From Polycladidibacter hongkongensis (GTDB lineage: Bacteria > Pseudomonadota > Alphaproteobacteria > Rhizobiales > Stappiaceae), in the NCBI RefSeq assembly GCF_001561995.1, contig NZ_LLWC01000009.1, positions 1 to 64,000 of the forward strand: a DNA stretch of 64,000 nucleotides, read 5' to 3'. Position numbers and translations under genes: made by a program. How positions within the stretch are numbered: the stretch's first letter is position 1; each line of letters starts with the position of its first letter. Below are positions 274 to 13,089 of this stretch, piece after piece. The notes below the pieces were generated by a model. It was not told where the DNA came from and made no database searches. It was given only the letters and a program-made list of their open reading frames with translations.

Positions 274-1146
274 TCAAATATTTAACGAGAAAAACTCCAT
301 AAGCGGGGCGTAACCCAATGAACCCTTTCGGCAGACCAAATATTCATGGGCAACCTCTTCACAGCCATCAATCCGAATAGCGCAGAGGCGTTCATCGCAT
401 CCAGCCTCCCGGTCCAGGATAATGGTGAAGCCGAAACCTAGCGCGACAGCTTCCCGCACAGACTCACGTCCGAATATCTCCAGTACAACATTTGGCTTAA
501 AACCTGCTTTTTGGCAGTGTTCAAATGCCAATTGGCGGGTGTAGGAGCCTTTTTCTCGCATGATCATTGGCAACCCAGCTAAGCTGTTAATGCTAAGCGA
601 CGCTTGGCTGGCAATCGGCGCGGTTTTGGGAACAAGGAGCTGAAGGGATTGGATCGCAAACTGTTGGCAGTGGTACTTATTGATAGGCTCACTCAAACCT
701 ATGCTAATGAGATCCAGATGGAAGTCATCAAGCATAGTGAAAAGCCTTGAAGAGTTCGCCTGTTGGAATTCAAGTGGTACGAGTGGTTCAGCGGCGCGAA
801 AGCGCTTTGCAGCACTCAGTACGAGCTGAGGGGCTGTATATCCAATCTTTAACGGCGCAACCGAATTTCCGGTTGCATAGCGGATAGTGTCCAGCATTCT
901 ATTGGTTTCGTTGAGGGTATCACGGGCCACAGCTACGACATGTTCACCGGCGGTTGTGAGCAATAACCTGCGCCCAACACGGCGAAAAATGGGAACTTCA
1001 AATTCTTTTTCAAAGGTTCTTATCAAATTTGTGACAGCTGGTTGGCTAATTCCAAGTGTTCTCGCCGCACTTGTTATTCCGTTGCCATCAACTACCGCAA
1101 CGAAGGCTTGTAGTTGGCGTAATGTCGGCCGATTTGCGCCATTCAT
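274..1146 (-). CDS. LysR-family transcriptional regulator
   Basis: A 290-residue LysR-type regulator. The N-terminal winged helix-turn-helix (about residues 4-65) contains LRQLQAFVAV and the recognition-helix stretch TLGISQPAVTNLIRTFE. The rest is a periplasmic-binding-like effector domain. I chose the ATG at 1146 because GAGAGGG lies 9 bases upstream; an in-frame TTG at 1164 is possible. It is divergent from an Opp-type ABC importer, hydrolase and phnW/phnX relic, and an LTTR-box-like dyad lies between. LysR-type regulators control 2-aminoethylphosphonate genes in several proteobacteria, so a phosphonate-related inducer is plausible. The effector itself is not readable from the sequence. Confidence 0.93.
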   Translation of the reverse strand: MNGANRPTLRQLQAFVAVVDGNGITSAARTLGISQPAVTNLIRTFEKEFEVPIFRRVGRRLLLTTAGEHVVAVARDTLNETNRMLDTIRYATGNSVAPLKIGYTAPQLVLSAAKRFRAAEPLVPLEFQQANSSRLFTMLDDFHLDLISIGLSEPINKYHCQQFAIQSLQLLVPKTAPIASQASLSINSLAGLPMIMREKGSYTRQLAFEHCQKAGFKPNVVLEIFGRESVREAVALGFGFTIILDREAGCDERLCAIRIDGCEEVAHEYLVCRKGSLGYAPLMEFFSLNI

Positions 1147-1175
1147 AAAAATTCGCCCTCTCAACTTAAGGTCAG

Positions 1176-1273: not shown

Positions 1274-3310
1274 ATGAAGTTATTCGCATCTGCAAGTATT
1301 TTACTCGCCTCAACTGCTGTTGCAGTTGCTTCCCCTTGTTCTGAATTTACCGTAGAAACAGCCGGAAAAATGGCTGGTAAGTATCCTCAGCAATATGAAT
1401 TGCTTGAGTTTCAAGAGGCAACAAATTGTAAAGTCACTTTTAGTCAAAACCCTGAGATTGAAAAGCTTAATGCCCTGATTATCGGCAATAAGGCGCTTGG
1501 AAGCGTTACAGAGCGCTTGCCATCTGAGCCTCTGGTTGTTGCGCCATACGAAGCGGTTGGGGTTTATGGCGGCGTGCTAGATGGCATGTCTAATGCAACA
1601 GAAGCGGGAACATCGGACCTTTTGTCAGTCCGGCACGTTAATCTGGTTCGTTTTGCAGATGATCTTGAGACCATCGTACCAAACATTGCAAAAGACTATA
1701 AGTGGAATGACGATTATACCAAGCTGACGTTCACTCTCCGTAAGGGCCATAAATGGTCTGACGGCGCGCCATTTACCTCTGCCGATATTGTCTTCTGGTA
1801 CGACAATATGACCCGTGATCCTAAAGTGGTGGAGAAGCCGAAGGACATGTGGTCCGCTGGTGGTGAGCCAATTGTTGTCACAGCTGTTGATGCTCAAACC
1901 GTTGAGTTTTCTATGAAGGCACCAAAGCCGGGCTTGCTTTCAGCTTTGGCAACAAACTACGCGCAACCTTTTCAGCCGAAGCACTTCCTCGGCCAGTATC
2001 ACCCGCAAATTAATCCCAAAGCAGATGAGCTGGCGAAGGCGGCCGGTTTTGAGAGCGGCTATGATGTCATCGGCTTTTACTATGGCGGCTCGGACTGGAA
2101 AGATGTGCCATCCCCGCTGCTGAAGGATGCATCCAAGATCGCAAAATTGCCAGCGGCTGTTGTTCCAACGCTAGAAAGTCACGTGGTTGTTGAAGACACA
2201 ACTGAAGGGCGTCGCGTTGTTGCAAACCCTTACTTCCATATGGTCGACACTGCGGGTAACCAGCTGCCATATATCAATGAGATTCGCGAAACCTATGTTC
2301 CGGAAAACGAAGTGCGCGTGCTCAAAATGGTCAATGGTGAGATTGACTACAAATCCCAGTCCGTTTCCCTTCCCGACGCACCAACCCTTTTGGACGGTCA
2401 GGAAAAAGGCAATTACGCGGTAGATCTGCGCCCAACCATTGGTCTAGCATCTTTCGCCTTCAATGTTACTGCAAACGACGAAGAAAAGCGTAGCATTTTT
2501 GCCAATAAAGATTTCCGCTTGGCGATGTCCCACGCCATTAATCGTGGCGAGATCAATTCCGCTGCTTACTTCGACTTAGGTCAGCCAAGCGCCTACACCG
2601 CTTTTGATCCCGCGCCTTCATTTATCACAGATGAGCAGAAAAATTACGCAATTGCGTTTGATGCAGAAAAAGCATCGCGGCTGCTCGATAAGGTCGGCTT
2701 GAAGGATATTGACGGCGATGGCTGGCGTGATTTGCCCTCTGGTAAAAAGCTCACGTTGAATTTGCAGTTCTCCACTCAGGGCTTGCCAACAACAGTGGCC
2801 GAGCTTGTGGCCCAAGACTGGTCAAACGCGGGTATTCAGACAGTCATCAAAGAAGTTACATCTGATGAGTACCGAGCGGCTCAATCGGCTAATGAGCTTG
2901 ATGTGCTTGCTTGGAACAAGGGCCAGCCACTGCCGGTCATTCAGGGTTCAGCAAAAGACTTCGTTCCGCCATATGATGATTTCTTCGGGCTGCGCGTCGG
3001 GATGCCTTGGGTCCAGTATGTAGATACTAATGGCGCGGAAGGCATGGAGCCACCAGTTTGGACCAAAGAACTGGCTGCAAAAATTCAAAAGTGGCAGTCC
3101 CTCGTTCCTGGTACAGACGCTTCAAACAAGTTGGGCCACGAGTTGGTGGCAGATGTTCAGGAGCAATTCCTGATGATTGGCACCGTGAAAGCGCCGGCGC
3201 CAATCTATCATTCCAACAAACTCAAAAACTTCTCTACGCCAAAAACATCATCCTACGATTTTTATCGTGTCTACCCTTACCGCCCTCAACAGTGGTTCCT
3301 AACCAACTAG
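1274..3310 (+). CDS. Opp/Dpp-type ABC transporter substrate-binding protein
   Basis: A 678-residue periplasmic solute-binding protein of family 5 (peptide/opine/nickel-type). A signal peptide is visible (MKLF, then a hydrophobic stretch, likely cut after AVA at residue 19). The family core begins near residue 100 with FADDLETIVPNIAKDY and TFTLRKGHKWSDGAPFTSAD. It is longer than most DppA/OppA proteins (~530-600), with an N-terminal extension. It heads an operon with two permeases, two ATPases and a phosphonate-hydrolase-like enzyme, which argues that the ligand is a small phosphonate or sulfate ester and not a peptide. That ligand is inference. A terminator-like hairpin follows the gene. Confidence 0.92.
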   Translation: MKLFASASILLASTAVAVASPCSEFTVETAGKMAGKYPQQYELLEFQEATNCKVTFSQNPEIEKLNALIIGNKALGSVTERLPSEPLVVAPYEAVGVYGGVLDGMSNATEAGTSDLLSVRHVNLVRFADDLETIVPNIAKDYKWNDDYTKLTFTLRKGHKWSDGAPFTSADIVFWYDNMTRDPKVVEKPKDMWSAGGEPIVVTAVDAQTVEFSMKAPKPGLLSALATNYAQPFQPKHFLGQYHPQINPKADELAKAAGFESGYDVIGFYYGGSDWKDVPSPLLKDASKIAKLPAAVVPTLESHVVVEDTTEGRRVVANPYFHMVDTAGNQLPYINEIRETYVPENEVRVLKMVNGEIDYKSQSVSLPDAPTLLDGQEKGNYAVDLRPTIGLASFAFNVTANDEEKRSIFANKDFRLAMSHAINRGEINSAAYFDLGQPSAYTAFDPAPSFITDEQKNYAIAFDAEKASRLLDKVGLKDIDGDGWRDLPSGKKLTLNLQFSTQGLPTTVAELVAQDWSNAGIQTVIKEVTSDEYRAAQSANELDVLAWNKGQPLPVIQGSAKDFVPPYDDFFGLRVGMPWVQYVDTNGAEGMEPPVWTKELAAKIQKWQSLVPGTDASNKLGHELVADVQEQFLMIGTVKAPAPIYHSNKLKNFSTPKTSSYDFYRVYPYRPQQWFLTN

Positions 3311-3387: not shown

Positions 3388-4392
3388 ATGGCGTCATTCC
3401 TTAAGTTTATAGCGGTGCGTTTTGCGGCGGCATTTGCCACAATGCTGCTTGTATCGTTTATCGTTTTTACCCTGATGGAGCTCGTGCCCGGGAATTGTGC
3501 CGAGCGCTACATTGCCTACAAAACGACACAGGGTCAGTTGATCACTGAAGCCGACATCCGCGCGGAAGAAGTGCGGATGGGGCTTGACCGTCCCTATATC
3601 GAGCGCTGGGTTAAATGGGTAAGCAGCGCCATTTTCAGGTTTGACTTGGGTGAAAGCTGCCTCTGGCGTGTCGATGTTACCCAACTTATAGGTGACAAGC
3701 TTGGAATTTCGCTTGGGCTTAGTTTCGCAGCATTAATGCTGACCTATGTAATTGCGATCCCCGTCGGCATCCTCTCCGCCAGCATGCGCGACGGTGTTTT
3801 AGACAGCTCTCTACGCGTTGCCAGTTACTTGGGCCTTGCGTTGCCAAACTTCCTCCTTGCCCTTGGTATCATGCTCGTCTCCACCGTCTTCTTTGGAGAT
3901 ACCTTGACGGGGCTGTTCTCGGATGAATACCGGGATGTACCATGGAGTATGGCAAAACTGGGCGACATGCTCTCTCACGCATGGTTGCCAATCCTAATAT
4001 TGGGGTGGTCGGCGACTGCGATCCAGCTGCAAACTGTTCGTGCACTGATGTCAGATGAGCAAGGCAAGCTGTATGTGACAGCGGCAAAAGCACGAGGAAT
4101 TACAGGGATGCGCTTGCTCATGTGCTACCCCGCTCGTCATGCGCTTGGACCAGTCATCAATTCAATCGGCTTCGATCTGAATCGCATCTTCAATGACTTG
4201 CCAATAGTCGCGGCAGTTCTTGCATTGACCGATGCTGGCGCACTGCTACTCGAAGCCTTGGCGAAATCAAATGACCAGCAGCTCGCCGGCGCGATTATTC
4301 TAGCCATGACGGCAACCATCGTCGCCTTGAATTTTCTGACTGATATTCTCCTCGCCTTTATCGACCCACGCGTACGCAAGGGGTTTTTCTAA
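3388..4392 (+). CDS. ABC transporter permease, DppB/OppB type
   Basis: A 334-residue inner-membrane permease. The N-terminal membrane segment (FAAAFATMLLVSFIVFTLMELVPG) is the typical start of OppB/DppB proteins. Several further hydrophobic helices follow. The cytoplasmic EAA-type loop is near residues 228-245 (TAAKARGITGMRLLMCYPAR). AGGCGAA lies just before the ATG. The stop codon overlaps the start of the next permease by one base (TAATG), which indicates translational coupling. It pairs with that permease to form the pore of the importer. Confidence 0.92.
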   Translation: MASFLKFIAVRFAAAFATMLLVSFIVFTLMELVPGNCAERYIAYKTTQGQLITEADIRAEEVRMGLDRPYIERWVKWVSSAIFRFDLGESCLWRVDVTQLIGDKLGISLGLSFAALMLTYVIAIPVGILSASMRDGVLDSSLRVASYLGLALPNFLLALGIMLVSTVFFGDTLTGLFSDEYRDVPWSMAKLGDMLSHAWLPILILGWSATAIQLQTVRALMSDEQGKLYVTAAKARGITGMRLLMCYPARHALGPVINSIGFDLNRIFNDLPIVAAVLALTDAGALLLEALAKSNDQQLAGAIILAMTATIVALNFLTDILLAFIDPRVRKGFF

Positions 4393-5516
4393 TGGCACTA
4401 TTCGCCGCAAAACCGATCAAAAAAGAAGACTACTACACCGCTTCTCAGCTACAGCTTGTATGGGCACGCTTTAAAAAGAAGAAAAGTGCGCTAATCGCCG
4501 CCTTTTGTTTGCTCTTTTTTGTTCTTTCAGGCGTTTTTGCGCCGTTTTTGAGCCCCTACGCCCCAACTGCGGCGGGGCGAAATCAGGATTATACAAATGG
4601 TGCGCCGCAAATCCCGCAGTTTTGCGATGCGAAAGGGTGCTCGGCGCGTCCGTTCATTCACAAGGTCGAAAGGCACCGAGGAGTAGAGACCAACTTTAGA
4701 TGGGTGACCAAGCAAACGGATAAGCGCAACTACATTGTGCTGCTGCCAAAATCGAAGCCCTACACCATGCTAGGTATCCCGCTTTCACATCGCCTTTTTG
4801 GTGTCGAAGAGGGGTTCATTCACCTGTTTGGAACAGACGCAACAGGCAAAGACATTTTCTCCCGCACCTTACATGCAATCGGCATTAGCCTAGCTGTGGG
4901 AACGGTGGGGGTGCTGATATCCTTTGTTCTGGCCTTGGTGATCGGCGGCGTTGCGGGATATTTCGGTGGTTGGGTAGACACTGTGCTGCAAGCGCTAATG
5001 GACACAGTCAAAACAACCCCGACTATTCCGCTATTTATGGCACTGGCAGCATTCATCCCCGATGAATGGTCAGCCGAAGCACGCTTTACATTTATCTCGA
5101 TCATCCTTGGGCTGCTGGGTTGGGGCACATTGGCCCGTAGAATCCGCACTCATGTGTTGGCAGAAAGAAACGCAGATTATGTACTGGCGGCAAAGCTCTG
5201 CGCCGCAAAGCCAGCCCACATTATTATGCGCCACCTTCTGCCCAGCTTTACCAGCTATATAATTGTCGATCTTGTGATCTCGTTTCCATACATGGTTTTG
5301 GCGGAAACATCGCTCAGCTTTATAGGTCTTGGTCTAAAAGATCCGGTCAACTCGCTTGGTGTACTCCTGCAAAATGTCACCAAAGTTGACGTCTTGCTCA
5401 ATTACCAATGGTACTTCATTCCAGTCCCGATTTTTGTAGCGATCGTGCTCGCTTTTGTTTTTGTTGGCGATGGACTGCGCGACGCCGCGGACCCTTACTC
5501 GGAGCATCGCAAATGA
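4392..5516 (+). CDS. ABC transporter permease, DppC/OppC type
   Basis: A 374-residue permease. It has the OppC-like N-terminal TM (FCLLFFVLSGVFAPFLSPYAP), a long periplasmic insert (about residues 60-150), and the GTDATGKDIFSRTLHAIG motif typical of this subfamily. The EAA loop is near residues 268-285 (YVLAAKLCAAKPAHIIMRHL). The C-terminus ends in GDGLRDAADP, the usual DppC tail. It overlaps the upstream permease by one base and the downstream ATPase by four (ATGA), so the five transport genes are one tightly coupled unit. Confidence 0.92.
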   Translation: MALFAAKPIKKEDYYTASQLQLVWARFKKKKSALIAAFCLLFFVLSGVFAPFLSPYAPTAAGRNQDYTNGAPQIPQFCDAKGCSARPFIHKVERHRGVETNFRWVTKQTDKRNYIVLLPKSKPYTMLGIPLSHRLFGVEEGFIHLFGTDATGKDIFSRTLHAIGISLAVGTVGVLISFVLALVIGGVAGYFGGWVDTVLQALMDTVKTTPTIPLFMALAAFIPDEWSAEARFTFISIILGLLGWGTLARRIRTHVLAERNADYVLAAKLCAAKPAHIIMRHLLPSFTSYIIVDLVISFPYMVLAETSLSFIGLGLKDPVNSLGVLLQNVTKVDVLLNYQWYFIPVPIFVAIVLAFVFVGDGLRDAADPYSEHRK

Positions 5517-6547
5517 CCCTGCTTCGCGTGCAAGATTTGCAAATAAAGTTCTCCACTCCCGAAGGCGAAATCACCGCGGTGGATCATGTCTCATTTGAAG
5601 TCAATCCCGGCGAGGTCTTGGGATTGGTCGGGGAAAGCGGGTCAGGGAAATCGGTTACGGCCCGCGCCCTAATGCAACTAAACGCGAGCAATACCACCTA
5701 CGGTGAGAACTCTAAGCTCCTGTTGGAAACACCCGGCGAAAGCGTCGACATTCTTGCGCTTAAGAGCGAGCGGCAAAGGCGCAAGGTTCGCGGGGATCTC
5801 GTTTCGATGATCTTCCAAGAGCCAATGGCAAGCTTTGCACCGGCGCTGACAATCGGAAGCCAGATGTGCGAGCAGTTGAAGCTTCATCGCGGACTGCGGC
5901 GCCCCGAGGCAAAGGACCTGTCAATTCAACTGCTTTCCCGGGTAGGCATATCTGATGCCGCTCGTCGGTTTGACCAATATGCCTTTGAGTTGTCGGGGGG
6001 GATGCGCCAACGAGCTATGATAGCCATGGCTCTTTCGACAAAACCCAGTTTGCTTATCGCAGACGAGCCAACAACGGCGCTGGATGTTACCATTCAGGCG
6101 CAAGTTATTGATTTGATGAAGGAGATAGCACGCGACTTTGGCATGGGTATCATCTTCATTACGCACGATCTGGGAGTCATTGCCCAAACTGCAGACAGAG
6201 TCGCGGTCATGTATCTTGGCAAGATTGTCGAAAGCGGCCCTGTACGCGAGGTGCTTCACAATCCAGCACATCCATACACGCGTGGCCTCATAAATGCCCT
6301 TCCGAAGCTGGAAGACCTTGAGGCTCAGTTGACACCCGTGCCGGGAGATATACCCAGCCCGCTGGAGCGTCCAGCAGGTTGTGTGTTCCATACCCGCTGC
6401 CCTCAGTTTTCAAAAGGAACCTGTGAACACGCAATTCCTCCGCAACATCTGGTCGGGAATGAGCATTTTTCCGCCTGCCATCTTCATGAAGAGGCCCTTG
6501 CCAGTACACTGGCCTCCGCCGAGCATAATCAAGGGGTACCGGCATGA
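5513..6547 (+). CDS. ABC transporter ATP-binding protein, DppD/OppD type
   Basis: A 344-residue ATPase. Walker A is GESGSGKS (about residues 43-50), the signature is [16 protein letters not shown], and Walker B is [12 protein letters not shown], followed by the H-loop THDLG. The C-terminal oligopeptide/dipeptide extension carries [15 protein letters not shown], a four-cysteine region that in DppD/OppD relatives binds an iron-sulfur cluster or metal. The ATG at 5513 overlaps the previous stop by four bases and was chosen over longer in-frame extensions. It forms a heterodimer with the next ATPase. Confidence 0.93.
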
Positions 6548-7566
6548 TTAAGTCTTCCCCCATGGTCACTAAGACCAGCGCGGTCTCGATCAAGAACCTT
6601 ACAGTTCGATTTCCCATCAGCAAATCGATGCTGGGCAAAGCTGAGTACCTAACGGCGGTTAGAGATGTTTCTCTGGAAATCCCACGTGGCAGCTTCTTCG
6701 GCTTGGTAGGAGAATCCGGTTCTGGGAAAACCACACTTGGTCGTGCTACGCTAAAAGCAGCGCCGATTTCGCAAGGCGCGATTACTTTTCGGGATAGAGA
6801 AGACCGAGCCTTCGCGCTGGCCGAGCTGGGCAGCAAGGAAGAGCGATCCTTTCGTCACCGGGCACAACTCATTTTTCAAGACCCCTACGCCGCTTTGAGC
6901 CCGCGCATGACAGTACGCGACATAATTGCCGAACCATTAGAGGTGATGAAGCTTACAAAATCGCGGGCAGAAACAGATGAATTGGTCAGAGAGATTGCAG
7001 CCAAATGTCGACTAAACGTCGAGCATTTGCGCCGCTTTCCCCACGCGTTTTCGGGCGGGCAACGCCAGCGGATTTCCATTGCACGGGCTCTGGTTACCAA
7101 CCCGTCCTACATTGTGGCCGATGAAAGTGTCGCCGCGCTTGATGTCTCGATTCAAGCCGACATCCTTAATCTTTTAAAATCGTTGCAGTGTGATTTGGGG
7201 CTGACTTTTCTGTTCATCAGCCACGACCTTTCCGTTGTTGCTCACACCTGCGATCATGTGGCTGTCATGTATCTTGGGTCCTTGGTTGAGGTTGCCCGTC
7301 CACGCGAACTCTTTGCCTCGCCGCAACACCCCTACACGCAGGCTTTACTATCGGCGATCCCTTCTCTCGATCCAGATCACAAGACCAAACCAATGGCTTT
7401 GCGGGGCGAAATCCCCAGCCCGGTTAACCTGCCATCTGGCTGTAAGTTCCACACGCGCTGTCCGTCGGCGACCGAGCGGTGCCGCTTCGAAGAGCCAGTG
7501 CTGCAAGGTTCAGGTGGACACAAAGTGGCCTGCCATCACGTTGACGCCGCACTTCAAGCAGTTTAG
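6544..7566 (+). CDS. ABC transporter ATP-binding protein, DppF/OppF type
   Basis: A 340-residue ATPase that starts in an ATGA overlap with the previous gene. Walker A is GESGSGKTT, the signature is AFSGGQRQRISIARAL, and Walker B is YIVADESVAALD (Ser where Pro is usual). The H-loop is SHDLS. The C-terminal domain has GCKFHTRCPSATERC, as in its partner. An ATG six codons in (6562) is an alternative start. It is the second nucleotide-binding subunit of the Opp-type importer. Confidence 0.93.
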   Translation: MIKSSPMVTKTSAVSIKNLTVRFPISKSMLGKAEYLTAVRDVSLEIPRGSFFGLVGESGSGKTTLGRATLKAAPISQGAITFRDREDRAFALAELGSKEERSFRHRAQLIFQDPYAALSPRMTVRDIIAEPLEVMKLTKSRAETDELVREIAAKCRLNVEHLRRFPHAFSGGQRQRISIARALVTNPSYIVADESVAALDVSIQADILNLLKSLQCDLGLTFLFISHDLSVVAHTCDHVAVMYLGSLVEVARPRELFASPQHPYTQALLSAIPSLDPDHKTKPMALRGEIPSPVNLPSGCKFHTRCPSATERCRFEEPVLQGSGGHKVACHHVDAALQAV

Positions 7567-7583
7567 TTTCCCGCAGTTGTAGA

Positions 7584-9104
7584 ATGAAAATGAAACAAGA
7601 TTTACCGAATATTCTTTTTATCACCGCTGATCAATGGCGTGGCGATACTGTCGCGTACGCTGGTAACAAGATTGTCAAAACACAGAATATCGACAGCTTG
7701 GCAGCTGAAGGAGTGGCATTCTTGCAGCACTACGCTGCGGCCGCGCCCTGCTCACCAGCGCGGGCCGCTATGTATACTGGTCTCTACCAAATGAACAATC
7801 GCGTCACCACCAATGGTACGCCGCTGGCGGGCAGCTTTGATAACATGGCCCGTGCCGCGCGTCGGGCAGGCTACACTCCGACCCTCTTTGGCTACACAGA
7901 TATCGCGGCTGATCCGCGTGAGCACGCTCCGAATGATCCTGCTGCAAGAACATATGAGGGGGTGCTGCCCGGCTTTGATGTCGGCCAAAGCCTTTTTGAA
8001 AATGCGGCGCCTTGGAAAAACTGGCTACGCAAGCGCGGGCATACGCTAGCAACACTCAAAGACCCTTACTTACTGCCGCCACCAGATGGAGAAGTTGTTC
8101 CAACAAGCGCAGCAGCCTTTGGTGAAGAGGAAACCCAAACAGCGTATCTGGCGGGACGTTTTTTGGATTGGTTTGACGAGCAATGCACAGAGCGACCTTG
8201 GTTTGCGCACCTTTCACTTATTCACCCGCATCCACCCTTCGTTGCGCCTGCCCCATTTAACGATATGTACGCGCCTGATGCCGTACCCCCTTTGAAGGGC
8301 GGAGATGCTGCCGACGAGGTTTTTGATCGGCACCCGCTGGTCAAGCTTCTGCGAGAACAGTCTGATGCGAGCAGCTTTGTGCCCGGCATAGAAGGGAGCG
8401 TCGCGGAGTTTTCAGCCCACGACTTCCAACGGATCAAGGGCGTGTACTACGGCCTTATCTCGGAAGTTGATGCGCAGCTAGGGCACATTTTTGATCACTT
8501 GAAAGCGAGCGGAGCTTGGGAGAACACATTTATTGTGTTCACCTCGGATCATGGGGAGATGATGGGAGACCACGCAATGCTTGGCAAAGGCGGATTTTAT
8601 CCGCAAAGCCAACACGTCCCACTTATCATGAAGCTACCTTATTGCGGGCCACAGCCAGCAACACACGCCAAAACCAGCGCGGTAGATCTGTTCCCAACGC
8701 TACTCGACCTTATGCAGTTAACCCCGGAAAATGACGTGAACGGGCAATCGCTTCTGCCATTCCTCAAGGGTGAAAAGCCGGAAAACTGGCGCGACTCGGT
8801 TATTTGGGAGTTCGATTTCCGCCACCTTCAGCAAAATCTGCAGTTAGAAAAGTGCGTCCTTCCAGAAGATCACCAGTTGATGGTGCGGATGTGCGACAAT
8901 CACCTCTTTGCGTATTCACCATCCCTTCCGCCGGTTCTCTTCGATCTACAGGCCGATCCGGATTGCTGCCGCAATCTTTGGGAGACTGAGGATGGAAAGC
9001 GGATGGCATCGCCTCTTCTTCAAAGTATGCTGCAAGAGCGCATGCGCGCGGCAAATGACACGCTGGTTTCCCAAAACGTTCTGTTCAACAACGCAAACGG
9101 CTAA
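7584..9104 (+). CDS. Formylglycine-dependent hydrolase, phosphonate monoester hydrolase/arylsulfatase-like
   Basis: A 506-residue alkaline-phosphatase-superfamily enzyme. The N-terminal metal site is ITADQWRGD. The CSPAR motif at residues 53-57 (PCSPARAAMYTG) is the CxPxR site whose Cys is converted to formylglycine. HPHPPFVAP and FTSDHGEMMGDHAMLGKG supply further metal and phosphate ligands. From memory, the layout and wording (GLISEVDAQLG, EFDFRH near the C-terminus) follow rhizobial and Burkholderia phosphonate monoester hydrolases more closely than choline sulfatases. There is no signal peptide, so it works in the cytoplasm on imported substrate. The phnW/phnX relic directly downstream supports a phosphonate ester as substrate. 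Sulfate esters remain possible. Confidence 0.82.
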   Translation: MKMKQDLPNILFITADQWRGDTVAYAGNKIVKTQNIDSLAAEGVAFLQHYAAAAPCSPARAAMYTGLYQMNNRVTTNGTPLAGSFDNMARAARRAGYTPTLFGYTDIAADPREHAPNDPAARTYEGVLPGFDVGQSLFENAAPWKNWLRKRGHTLATLKDPYLLPPPDGEVVPTSAAAFGEEETQTAYLAGRFLDWFDEQCTERPWFAHLSLIHPHPPFVAPAPFNDMYAPDAVPPLKGGDAADEVFDRHPLVKLLREQSDASSFVPGIEGSVAEFSAHDFQRIKGVYYGLISEVDAQLGHIFDHLKASGAWENTFIVFTSDHGEMMGDHAMLGKGGFYPQSQHVPLIMKLPYCGPQPATHAKTSAVDLFPTLLDLMQLTPENDVNGQSLLPFLKGEKPENWRDSVIWEFDFRHLQQNLQLEKCVLPEDHQLMVRMCDNHLFAYSPSLPPVLFDLQADPDCCRNLWETEDGKRMASPLLQSMLQERMRAANDTLVSQNVLFNNANG

Positions 9105-9141
9105 AACCCAGTGCAAATTGCACAAACAAGGAGCATGTAAA

Positions 9142-9524
9142 ATGCTACTACCTGCGCCAAAGCTGGGGGAACCCTACCTGCGCACACCCGGGCCCCTTAC
9201 GACTTCAGCAATGGTCAAAGAGGCGATGCTTGGTATCTATCAAACTATGGTCGGTCTAGCGGTTTATCCGCTTTAGGCAATCTTGAAGATTGATGAAACG
9301 GCTCCCGGTATTCAGGAGGGAAAGATCGCCGGTGGTGTTACTGTTGGTGTTGTGTTCTCTGGCAACGCCGTAGGTAAAACTCCAGCTGAGCTTGCTGCCT
9401 TATCAGCAGCAAAGGTTGATGACCTTAGACAACACGCAACCAAGCTACGAAGCGGGAGCGGACTGTAACCGATACGATTGCCGGTCTGCCTGAATTGGTC
9501 GACGAACTGGTAGCTAAACTGTGA
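9142..9524 (+). pseudogene. phnWX: phnW-phnX deletion relic (2-AEP transaminase / phosphonoacetaldehyde hydrolase)
   Basis: A good ribosome site (AAGGAG) precedes the ATG at 9142. The first ~30 codons (LRTPGPLTTSAMVKEAML) are the N-terminus of PhnW. With no frame change the reading continues as YQTMVGLAVYPL, then TAG at 9274-9276, then AILKIDETAPGIQEGKIAGG and VVFSGNAVGKTPAELAAL. These match the C-terminal third of PhnX phosphonatase. Beyond ~9455 the frame shifts: EAGADC and then DTIAGLPELVDELVAKL with TGA at 9522-9524 lie in other frames. So most of phnW and the front of phnX (roughly 1.5 kb, inferred) have been deleted, and the remainder carries one stop and about two frameshifts. Intact versions would convert 2-aminoethylphosphonate to acetaldehyde and phosphate. 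Confidence 0.85.
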
Positions 9525-9816
9525 TGAATACGACCAGTTAACCGTGAATCGTCACCACCTAAAAGGCTCTGGTATTGCCCGCTAAAGCTGCATCGGCAAA
9601 GTGGGCAATAGCTGCCTTGAAAAATTTATTTTGATAACTGAATAAATTCATCATTCATAGTAACTCCGAAATATTACGCAGATGTCAAACTAAGGTGCTG
9701 ATATACTTGGAATAATGATTGAAAATATTTTAGATAAACATTTTTTGACTAAGTAAAGCGATCTTTCTTTCAAATTTAGTTCTTGACTCCGCACCTCTCC
9801 CATTTCAGTCTATGGG
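9525..9816. other. AT-rich spacer with one hairpin
   Basis: No gene is visible. A perfect 8-bp inverted repeat (TATTGCCC at 9573-9580, GGGCAATA at 9603-9610) may close the upstream operon, but it lacks an immediate T-run. From ~9610 to 9790 the sequence is very AT-rich and serves as the upstream region of the sugar-transport operon. Confidence 0.5.
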
Positions 9817-9860
9817 TAATTGATTACAAACAATAAGATAGACAAGTGTAATCGGTTACA
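9817..9860. promoter_or_regulatory. Two LacI-family-like operators upstream of sugar ABC operon
   Basis: GTAATTGATTAC (9817-9828) and TGTAATCGGTTACA (9847-9860) are near-palindromes sharing the pattern GTAAT-YG-RTTACA. Their centres are 31 bp apart, about three helical turns, so one regulator could contact both on the same DNA face. The pattern resembles sugar operators of LacI-type repressors in alphaproteobacteria. They lie 62-105 bases upstream of the binding-protein start. No LacI gene is in the window. Confidence 0.6.
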
Positions 9861-9921
9861 TTTGCGGTGCATCCGGGAAATGTACTGCAAGTATTTTGGG
9901 AGCCCAAGGGAGGATTTGGGA

Positions 9922-11160
9922 ATGAATAAATTTACAAGCGCTATTGCGTCTACTCTTTTGCTTTCGTCTACTTGTGTTGCGGGCGCAGTTGATCTTGAAG
10001 TTACTCACTGGTGGACTTCAGGTGGTGAAGCTGCCGCAGTGAAAGTTATGGCTGATGCTGTCAACAAATCCGGCCATACTTGGGTAGATGGTGCAATCGC
10101 AGGTGGTGGTAATGCGCGCCCAATGATTATCAGCCGTATTTCTGGCGGTGATCCAATGGCCGCGACCCAGCTGAACACTGGCCGGGATGCCGAGGACCTG
10201 ATCAAAGCTGGCCTGATGACAGACCTGACCGATGTGGCCGAAAAAGAAGGCTGGGCAGACATTATCCGCCCCGCAAAGCTTCTTGATGCATGTCGCTATG
10301 AAGGCCGCATCTATTGCGTGCCAGTCAATATCCACTCCTTCCAGTGGATGTGGTTGAACCGCAAAGTGTATGAAGCCAATGGCATGGCAGTTCCAACCAA
10401 CTGGGAAGAGTTTGCTGCTTCTGCGCCGAAGATGAAAGAAGCTGGCGTTACACCACTCGCAGTGGGTGGTGAAACTTGGCAGCTGTCTGGCATGGCAAAC
10501 GTCTTTCAAGTCGCGCTGGGTGGTGTCGAGCTCTACCGTGGTCTGCAGGCTAAAGACGCAAAATTGGCGGCAAGCGCAGAGATGACCAAAGTGTTTGAGG
10601 CTATTGCAGCTGCGCGCGGCATGGTTGACAATGGTTATGTGGGACGCGCATGGAACGATGCAACAGGCATGGTTATTACTGGTAAAGCCGCAGCCCAAAT
10701 TATGGGTGACTGGGCACAGGGGGAATTCTCCGTTGCCAATCAAACCGCCGGCGTAGACTACGACTGCTTGCCGGGCCTCGGTGTTCATCCGGTACTTGAC
10801 ACCGGCGGTGATGCTTTCTTCTTCCCGAAACCTGCAGACGACAATCCTGAGATTGTTGCCGCCCAGAAAGAAATGGCATCTCTGCTAGTTTCAAAAGAAG
10901 TGCAGGTCGACTTCAACCTCAAAAAAGGCTCCTTGCCAGTACGGGGTGACGTTGATCTGGAGAGCGCCAACGCGTGTATGAAAAAAGGTCTGGCTATTCT
11001 GGAGCATGCAGAAAACATTCTGCCTTCCGACGAACAAGCCTTCTCTTCTGATACACAAGGCCAGCTGGAAGACCTCTGGGTTGAGTTCTTCAATGACCCA
11101 AGCCTGAGCGTTGAAGATGCTCAAGCTCGCTTCGTTGAGATCATCGAAATGGCTGACTAA
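9922..11160 (+). CDS. Sugar ABC transporter substrate-binding protein, glucose/mannose type
   Basis: A 412-residue family-1 solute-binding protein. I place the start at the ATG at 9922, behind AGGGAGG, because it yields a clean signal peptide (MNKFTSAIASTLLLSS, likely cut after AGA at residue 22). The mature protein begins VDLEVTHWWTSGGEAAAVKV, which is characteristic of the glucose/mannose group (GtsA-like). The IHSFQWMWLNRKVYEANG segment is also typical. It is followed by two permeases and one MalK-type ATPase. The sugar is not determined by the sequence; glucose, mannose or a related aldose is the best guess. Confidence 0.9.
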   Translation: MNKFTSAIASTLLLSSTCVAGAVDLEVTHWWTSGGEAAAVKVMADAVNKSGHTWVDGAIAGGGNARPMIISRISGGDPMAATQLNTGRDAEDLIKAGLMTDLTDVAEKEGWADIIRPAKLLDACRYEGRIYCVPVNIHSFQWMWLNRKVYEANGMAVPTNWEEFAASAPKMKEAGVTPLAVGGETWQLSGMANVFQVALGGVELYRGLQAKDAKLAASAEMTKVFEAIAAARGMVDNGYVGRAWNDATGMVITGKAAAQIMGDWAQGEFSVANQTAGVDYDCLPGLGVHPVLDTGGDAFFFPKPADDNPEIVAAQKEMASLLVSKEVQVDFNLKKGSLPVRGDVDLESANACMKKGLAILEHAENILPSDEQAFSSDTQGQLEDLWVEFFNDPSLSVEDAQARFVEIIEMAD

Positions 11161-11191
11161 GCCCAAAACAGCCCACAGTGAGGGGAATAAC

Positions 11192-11216
11192 GCAGGTCGA
11201 CCACTGGTCGGCCTGC
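11192..11216 (+). other. Hairpin between sugar-binding protein and permease genes
   Basis: An 11-bp stem with one G-U pair (11192-11202 with 11206-11216, loop ACT) lies between the binding-protein stop and the first permease. There is no T-run, so it is more likely an mRNA 3'-end stabiliser than a full terminator. It would favour excess binding protein, as in malE-malF. Confidence 0.6.
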
Positions 11217-11242
11217 ACGTTTCTTCTAGTCGGAGTACTGAT

Positions 11243-12139
11243 ATGCAAGCGGCCAAGCGTCCCAACCCGCTTTTTAAGAATTTACAAGCAAAAATCGCAG
11301 CAATACCGATGATCGCGGTAACGTTGATCGTCTTCCTCGGGTGCTCAATCTGGACCGTCGTCTATTCATTTACAAAGTCACGCGCACTTCCTCTTGAGGA
11401 GTTTGTTGGCTTTTATCAGTACGAGCGATTATTCAAGACATCGCGATGGCTTATCTCGCTAGAAAACATCGCAATCTACGGTATCTTCTCTCTCATTCTG
11501 ACGTTTGTCATCGGTTTCACACTCGCCGCATTGATTGATCAGAAGATCCGTTTCGAAAACACTTTCCGAACAATCATACTCTATCCTTTCGCGCTTTCCT
11601 TTATCGTCACCGGCGTCGTGTGGCAGTGGATCTTGGATCCGACACTAGGTATCCAGCATTCCATGCAAGCGCTGGGTTGGGAAAGCTTCCAGCTAGACCT
11701 AATCGCGGATCGAGACCTTGTTATTTTTGCTTTGCTGATAGCAGGGTTATGGCAAGGGACCGGCTTTGCTATGGTGCTCATGCTGGCAGGTATCCGCGGT
11801 ATTGATGGGGAAATCTGGAAAGCTTCCCGCATCGATGGTATTCCCACTTGGAAGACCTACCTCTTTGTCGTCATTCCGATGATGCGCGGCGTGATGGTCA
11901 CCACACTGGTGATAATCGCAGCTGGCATCGTGAAACTATATGATCTCGTTGTCGCGATGACCAACGGTGGACCCGGTATCGCCTCGGAAGTCCCGGCAAA
12001 GTACGTCTATGATTTCATGTTCGCGCGCGCCAATCTTGGCCAAGGCCTCGCCGCTTCCACCATTATGCTGACAACAGTTCTGATCATCCTGATCCCTTGG
12101 ATCTACCTTGAGTACGGCAATAAGAAGCAGAAGAGTTAG
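11243..12139 (+). CDS. Sugar ABC transporter permease (MalF-like)
   Basis: A 298-residue inner-membrane permease. The ATG at 11243 has CGGAG upstream and was preferred to in-frame extensions into the previous gene. There are about six membrane segments (for example MIAVTLIVFLGCSIWTVVYS and ALSFIVTGVVWQWILDP). The EAA loop is near residues 190-210 (EIWKASRIDGIPTWKTYLFV). The NGGPGIASEVPAKYVYDFMF motif near the C-terminus is typical of MalF/UgpA-type sugar permeases. It partners with the next gene. Confidence 0.92.
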   Translation: MQAAKRPNPLFKNLQAKIAAIPMIAVTLIVFLGCSIWTVVYSFTKSRALPLEEFVGFYQYERLFKTSRWLISLENIAIYGIFSLILTFVIGFTLAALIDQKIRFENTFRTIILYPFALSFIVTGVVWQWILDPTLGIQHSMQALGWESFQLDLIADRDLVIFALLIAGLWQGTGFAMVLMLAGIRGIDGEIWKASRIDGIPTWKTYLFVVIPMMRGVMVTTLVIIAAGIVKLYDLVVAMTNGGPGIASEVPAKYVYDFMFARANLGQGLAASTIMLTTVLIILIPWIYLEYGNKKQKS

Positions 12140-12150
12140 AGGGGGAGACC

Positions 12151-13089
12151 ATGAGCGTTCTTGCATATGAATCTACGCCAGAAAAAGCGACTGCAAAAAA
12201 AGCTCGCAGTGTAGAGCCATCAGGCTCCCGGCCGACACGCTATTTAGATCCTGGTCGGATTATCCTGTATTCGGTGCTGTTTGTTGCTGCTGTTTATTAC
12301 CTATTGCCACTTTATGTTATGGTGATGACCTCCATGAAGGGGCTGCCTGAAATCCGCATGGGCAACATTTTTTCTCCACCTATGGAAATCACATTCCAGC
12401 ACTGGGTGAAGGCGTGGGATAGCGCTTGCACAGGCCTTTATTGCGAAGGCTTAAAGGTCGGCTTCTGGAATTCTGTGAAAATCACAGTTCCGAGCGTGAT
12501 TATGTCGATCGCCATCGCCTCGGTGAATGGCTACGCCCTCTCTCATTGGCGCTTTAAGGGATCAGAAGTGTTTTTTACCATCCTGATTTTTGGGTCCTTT
12601 ATCCCATATCAGGTTATGCTTTATCCCTTGGTAATTATTACACGTGAGCTCGGCATTTTTGGCTCTCTAAGCGCTGTCGTTTTCGTTCATACAATCTTTG
12701 GGATGCCGATCCTGACGCTGCTGTTTAGGAATTACTTTGCCTCACTGCCACCTGAGCTATTAAGCGCTGCACGAGTTGATGGCGCTGGGTTTTGGGGGAT
12801 CTTCTTCAAGATCTTGATTCCCATGTCCGTTCCAATTTTCATGGTTGCGGTGATTATGCAGATTACCGGTATCTGGAACGACTTCCTCTTTGGCACCATC
12901 TTCGCTGGTATCAAAAACTTCCCGATGACCGTGCAGCTCAACAACATCGTCAACACGACTCAAGGCGTTAAAGAATACAATGTGAATATGGCTTCTACAA
13001 TTTTGACTGGGGCTGTGCCGCTTTGCATCTACGTTCTTTCAGGTAAATATTTTGTGCGTGGCATCGCCGCCGGTGCAGTGAAAGGGTAA
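12151..13089 (+). CDS. Sugar ABC transporter permease (MalG-like)
   Basis: A 312-residue permease whose ATG follows AGGGGGAG. A ~45-residue cytoplasmic tail precedes the first membrane helix (IILYSVLFVAAVYYLLPLYV). The conserved YALSHWRFKGSE and the EAA loop (ELLSAARVDGAGFWGIFFKI) identify the MalG/UgpE class. The insert with ACTGLYCEGLKVGFWNSVKI matches the glucose-type subgroup as I recall it. It lies 11 bases after the MalF-like permease and 4 bases before the ATPase gene. Confidence 0.92.
   Translation: MSVLAYESTPEKATAKKARSVEPSGSRPTRYLDPGRIILYSVLFVAAVYYLLPLYVMVMTSMKGLPEIRMGNIFSPPMEITFQHWVKAWDSACTGLYCEGLKVGFWNSVKITVPSVIMSIAIASVNGYALSHWRFKGSEVFFTILIFGSFIPYQVMLYPLVIITRELGIFGSLSAVVFVHTIFGMPILTLLFRNYFASLPPELLSAARVDGAGFWGIFFKILIPMSVPIFMVAVIMQITGIWNDFLFGTIFAGIKNFPMTVQLNNIVNTTQGVKEYNVNMASTILTGAVPLCIYVLSGKYFVRGIAAGAVKG

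Follow-up and report, generated by a model that had tools for sequence, protein, structure and literature searches.

A probable phnW-phnX deletion relic behind an importer and hydrolase operon in Polycladidibacter hongkongensis

The DNA of the marine bacterium Polycladidibacter hongkongensis analysed here (64,000 nucleotides; the window) starts at the first base of contig NZ_LLWC01000009.1, and the left flank of the operon near its beginning is not comparable. The operon comprises genes for an ABC importer and an alkaline-phosphatase-superfamily hydrolase, with a divergent regulator gene in front and a broken region of less than 0.4 kb behind (Table 1). The regulator matched TIGR03339, the aminoethylphosphonate-associated LysR model. 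The importer and hydrolase frames are open, in agreement with the earlier note on this DNA, which had described the transport and hydrolase genes as intact. A promoter and terminator scan of positions 7400-10000 gave one promoter-like and four terminator-like hits against shuffle means of 2.2 and 3.4, respectively, and thus nothing usable.

Table 1. Features of the operon in the window and of the corresponding region (L096) of Pseudovibrio exalbescens M63
Sequence	Feature	Coordinates	Strand	Evidence or remark
Window	LysR-family regulator, phn_lysR type, divergent	274..1164	-	TIGR03339 E 2.3e-61, 207.5 bits, below the cut-off of 341.1; 55% identical to P. exalbescens
Window	Peptide/opine-class ABC substrate-binding protein	1274..3310	+	Family scan; 78% identical to P. 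exalbescens
Window	ABC permease 1	3388..4392	+	Opp-type permease models; 83% identical to P. exalbescens
Window	ABC permease 2	4392..5516	+	Opp-type permease models; 86% identical to P. exalbescens
Window	ABC ATPase 1	5507..6547	+	Open frame, OppD/DppD-type models; region colinear with P. exalbescens
Window	ABC ATPase 2	6544..7566	+	DppF/OppF-type models; 80% identical to P. exalbescens
Window	Alkaline-phosphatase-superfamily hydrolase, PehA/PMH-like	7584..9104	+	Open frame; PF00884 E 2e-49; 65% identical to P. exalbescens
Window	phnW remnant	9142..9234	+	Start codon and about 30 codons; NF010006 E 6.3e-5; alignment to 26 PhnW proteins
Window	Putative deletion junction phnW/phnX, in frame	9228..9240	+	Comparison with P. 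exalbescens
Window	phnX remnant, C-terminal third	9235..9524	+	TIGR01422 family scan; blastn to P. exalbescens phnX
P. exalbescens	GNAT gene	7519-8025		Before the hydrolase gene
P. exalbescens	Hydrolase	8025-9527		
P. exalbescens	HisN/inositol-monophosphatase-like phosphatase	9581-10387		Between hydrolase and phnW
P. exalbescens	phnW	10416-11639 (ORF)		482.6 bits on TIGR02326, over the cut-off
P. exalbescens	phnX	11652-12434		342.7 bits on TIGR01422, over the cut-off

The translated hydrolase carries CSPAR at residues 56-60, an instance of C-x-P-x-R, which we take to be the formylglycine site motif of phosphonate monoester hydrolase (PMH). Its best PDB match was 4uph (E 1.8e-140), named a sulfuric ester hydrolase, followed by 4upk, 2vqr and 2w8s, with 4upk and 2w8s named phosphonate monoester hydrolases. 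The match to the PMH/PehA entries (2vqr, 2w8s and 4upk) is nearly full-length, with E-values from 2.2e-83 to 4.1e-93, whereas the score on the PehA model NF045661 (E 2.1e-119; 399.4 of 900 bits) lies below the curated cut-off; the enzyme is therefore termed PMH-like.

The earlier note had read the region behind the hydrolase gene as about 30 codons of the PhnW N-terminus running on in the same frame into the C-terminal third of PhnX, interrupted by an in-frame TAG at 9274 and by frameshifts after about 9455 and ending in a TGA at 9522. Three-frame translation of 9142-9525 bore this out. Frame 1 opens at an ATG at 9142, preceded by a ribosome-binding-like AAGGAG, and reads MLLPAPKLGEPYLRTPGPLTTSAMVKEAML, next GIYQTMVGLAVYPL, a TAG at 9274-9276, and next AILKIDETAPGIQEG...VVFSGNAVG...DDLRQHATKL, before it is closed again at 9466-9468. 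In frame 2, 9449-9463 encodes EAGAD; in frame 3, 9465-9521 encodes VTDTIAGLPELVDELVAKL and is followed by the TGA at 9522-9524. The phnX remnant is thus interrupted by the TAG and by frame breaks near 9449 and 9464.

Both halves matched the expected families in the family scan, a search that the note had proposed. Positions 9142-9273 gave matches close to the N-terminus of each of three PhnW models: NF010006 (positions 5-26, E 6.3e-5), TIGR02326 (positions 4-26, E 8.7e-4, 18.5 of 400.8 bits) and TIGR03301 (positions 2-19, E 0.0099). Positions 9277-9465 matched the phosphonoacetaldehyde hydrolase model TIGR01422 (positions 176-230 of 251, E 1.1e-11), the next family having an E-value of 0.0092. 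Neither half is a full-length match over a curated cut-off: TIGR02326 covers only positions 4-26, and the PhnX part also lacks an open frame. Neither piece matched a Pfam family.

In the genome-wide search with TIGR01422, the relic, with one internal TAG, reached E 1.3e-13 (positions 161-230 of 251, 51.7 of 220 bits). This value alone is weak proof of PhnX because HAD relatives also match the model. Such relatives were matched in 14 of 14 control genomes at E <= 1e-3, although none at 1e-13, and some HAD genes of congeners had E-values comparable to or better than that of the relic (7.5e-15 and 3.0e-13 are examples); those matches, however, cover the HAD core instead of the C-terminal third. 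We regard as more specific evidence of PhnX the 63-residue family scan, the single PDB match of the relic (3iru, phosphonoacetaldehyde-hydrolase-like, E 2.6e-8) and the blastn match of 9228-9518 to P. exalbescens phnX DNA (E 5e-10). The PhnW assignment, covering some 30 codons with even relative-rate counts, rests on the E-value of 6e-5 and on synteny.

Synteny is provided by P. exalbescens M63, in which LysR, binding protein, two permeases, two ATPases, hydrolase, phnW and phnX are colinear with the window. The gene order is the same up to ATPase 2, and the operon then ends hydrolase-hisN-phnW-phnX. In contrast to the window, its phnW and phnX are intact, and its GNAT and HisN-like genes have no counterpart in the window operon. 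Intact orthologues thus occupy the same place in a relative, as the note had anticipated, with the HisN-like phosphatase gene in between. A 7-kb part of this region was found unchanged in NZ_JAQZAJ010000006.1. Like a phnW-phnX phosphonatase operon, the window has remnants that align with both genes, in the same order as in the relative, and a phn_lysR-type regulator; unlike such an operon, it has lost both genes to the junction and the further lesions.

At the junction, P. exalbescens reads GAGGCCATGCTG on the phnW side and CCGCTCGGCATGTATCAG on the phnX side, and the window reads GAGGCGATGCTTGGTATCTATCAA. GCT is common to both sides in P. exalbescens, and from GCT to GCT the deletion measures 1,596 bp in P. 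exalbescens coordinates, a multiple of three. This suggests possible GCT microhomology at the deletion ends.

The PhnX piece is 64% identical in amino acids to P. exalbescens over 73 codons. Over the columns of both relic pieces, identity to P. exalbescens PhnX is 66%; among 48 other intact PhnX proteins, 38 are closer to P. exalbescens PhnX (up to 82%), one is equal and nine are less similar (down to 33%), all values being rounded. The relic also alters three of the 22 columns conserved at >=95% in 49 PhnX proteins, including an invariant Asp changed to Glu. Real PhnX proteins altered a median of zero such columns in a leave-one-out comparison, with five divergent ones reaching 3-11.

Over the 73 codons, the window shows 17-19 unique amino-acid changes versus 1-3 in P. 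exalbescens, with all six outgroups. The corresponding counts were 12-22 versus 12-25 for permease 1 and 15-22 versus 8-14 for ATPase 2 (four outgroups each), 54-58 versus 25-33 for the binding protein (three outgroups) and 39-46 versus 24-29 for the hydrolase (four outgroups), so differences in these four genes were about twofold at most. Results from the different outgroups are mutually dependent. With a Rhodobacteraceae outgroup (L098), the Tajima test gave a chi2 of 13.8 (p 2e-4) for the PhnX piece. The 19:2 ratio of the PhnX relic stands apart both from 97:71, the pooled count for binding protein, permease 1 and ATPase 2 (Fisher p 0.0036), and from the 45:24 of the hydrolase (p 0.029). 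This excess of changes indicates that phnX decayed on the branch of the window. Relaxed constraint is thus seen in the PhnX half; the PhnW half offers too few codons for a judgement. Codon-position bias in the relic is still strong (0.23, 0.19 and 0.70), and part of its divergence therefore predates the loss or decay. Within phnX, codon positions did not differ significantly between window and P. exalbescens (p 0.26).

The same comparisons bear on the possibility that the whole operon is being lost and that importer and hydrolase are merely younger pseudogenes. In the Tajima test, the hydrolase (45:24, p 0.011) and the binding protein (58:33, p 0.009) were indeed faster in the window (permease 1 and ATPase 2 were not), and the codon-position distribution of the relic was not significantly different from that of the hydrolase on the window branch (p 0.40). 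However, the importer and hydrolase frames have stayed open. Moreover, the ratio of changes at codon positions 1+2 to those at position 3 in the three importer genes on the window branch (165:346) is not higher than on the P. exalbescens branch (123:198) and is below that of the relic (22:20, p 0.011). We therefore consider loss of the whole operon unlikely.

A reading in which a functional small gene was retained after the deletion, either as the 44-codon ORF at 9142-9276 or as the fused frame, is highly improbable. In its favour, the start codon is kept together with a ribosome-binding-like site, the frame continues across the junction, and amino-acid changes are not in excess in the PhnW half. 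Against this, the PhnX half contains a stop, two frame breaks and the 17-19 versus 1-3 unique changes, and the relic reads LRTPGPL where all 26 aligned PhnW proteins have LLTPGPL. The arrangement was moreover found by TIGR01422 in only one of 16 congeneric genomes, that of the window; the note had named conservation in relatives as the sign of a real small gene.

The stop and frame breaks are read from a 38-contig draft assembly and may include base errors. An assembly or base-calling artefact hiding an intact phnW-phnX pair is nevertheless extremely improbable: a misjoin cannot produce the surplus of amino-acid changes seen in the PhnX piece, and profile searches for the missing middle parts turned up nothing in the assembly beyond HAD and aminotransferase relatives, all of them low-scoring and with open frames. 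Likewise, we rejected the idea that the deleted parts had moved elsewhere, as no PhnW or PhnX over the cut-off was detected genome-wide and the other matches were low-scoring HAD hydrolases and aminotransferases.

We conclude that 9142-9524 is very probably a decaying pseudogene, the scar of a deletion in an ancestral phnW-phnX pair. In the ancestral operon, phnW and phnX would have come last, behind the hydrolase gene. A single deletion, roughly 1.6 kb long and perhaps guided by a short GCT match, may have left the first 30 or so codons of phnW and about one third of phnX as an in-frame chimera. This chimera bears a stop and two frame breaks and has lost amino-acid constraint, the order of these lesions being conjectural. 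Neither enzyme can be made, because the bulk of PhnW, presumably with the PLP site, and the N-terminal part of PhnX, which we take to hold the catalytic residues, are gone. Gene loss at this locus is ordinary, though unusually well documented, and provides a clean example of pathway erosion in which the cleavage enzymes have disappeared and the import and ester-hydrolysis genes stay open. For annotation, 9142-9524 should be marked as a pseudogene, and no PhnW/PhnX route should be predicted for the strain.

Among titles and abstract beginnings of the literature on phosphonatase, PMH, C-P lyase, gene loss and Pseudovibrio, no phnW-phnX relic is described, nor is one in the available portions of PMC4744853 and PMC4209062. 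A table in the latter portion lists two Paenibacillus polymyxa strains with phnX and without phnW (PMC4209062).

PhnX over the cut-off was found in two of 16 Pseudovibrio genomes, among which the window genome is counted, and PhnW in the same two (P. exalbescens and G004). The G004 PhnX is 41% identical to that of P. exalbescens, and G004 has no importer match at E <= 1e-60. At that threshold, binding-protein matches in the genus were limited to the window genome, P. exalbescens (78%) and G008 (33%). A neighbour survey kept 80 loci of 101 relatives. None of hydrolase, phnW and phnX was found at the set bit scores in 35 of the 80, but 19 of these 35 do not extend for 9.5 kb on each side. Among the 15 loci with both hydrolase and phnX, phnX comes first in 13; the exceptions are L164 and P. 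exalbescens, which has the hydrolase first, as in the window. This shared order supports the orthology of the two. In five alphaproteobacterial loci, a 52-55% HisN-like relative stands beside a 35-38% hydrolase, with phnW at about 2.5 kb or less in three (L126, L128 and L132) and at about 14 kb in two (L125 and L127).

Importer operons of Roseibium aggregatum (L152:16388-17521) and of the Rhodobacteraceae genome (L098:16719-17876) carry a TIGR03364 FAD oxidoreductase, not phnW, between ATPase and phnX, indicating that this type of importer also occurs with a different entry enzyme. According to the available part of one report, TIGR03364 includes PbfD (PMC10590968). Replacement of PhnW by this enzyme was considered and rejected, since none of the 16 Pseudovibrio genomes has a TIGR03364 match over the cut-off. 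In another genome (G082; L196, 1913-9608), the importer cluster around a 67% binding-protein relative includes a LysR gene and has no hydrolase, phnW or phnX within 18 kb; association with phosphonates is therefore not a strict rule for this importer family. The neighbours of other close importers are mixed (10 proteins, five loci) and give no clear pointer to the importer substrate.

The note had also claimed loss of 2-aminoethylphosphonate cleavage from this operon. This stands for the operon and the PhnW/PhnX route but not clearly for the cell or for 2-aminoethylphosphonate use as a phosphorus source, because another contig of the window genome carries a C-P lyase cluster, with PhnJ over the cut-off, PhnG, PhnH, PhnI, PhnM, PhnN and two ABC ATPases in the phnK and phnL positions. 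In the portion available of a study on Pseudovibrio FO-BEG1 and JE062, both strains have C-P lyase genes and grow on phosphonoacetate as phosphorus source (PMC3806328), and a continuing role of the importer and hydrolase in phosphonate use through C-P lyase is thus plausible. The two may now supply C-P lyase, or be used for a different ester. A tentative proposal, which we hold to be possible rather than probable, is that after the phosphonatase loss selection preserved both as a front end, either to C-P lyase or to the use of a different phosphate or phosphonate ester. If the front-end reading were true, a nutrient pathway would have been rewired by one deletion. The locus thus raises a testable question, namely whether an importer and a PMH-like enzyme can function without PhnW and PhnX, alongside C-P lyase. 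PhnJ is present in 13 of the 16 Pseudovibrio genomes. In G005 (C6:77784-78597), it is split into three overlapping matching pieces, possibly reflecting a broken C-P lyase gene or sequence errors.
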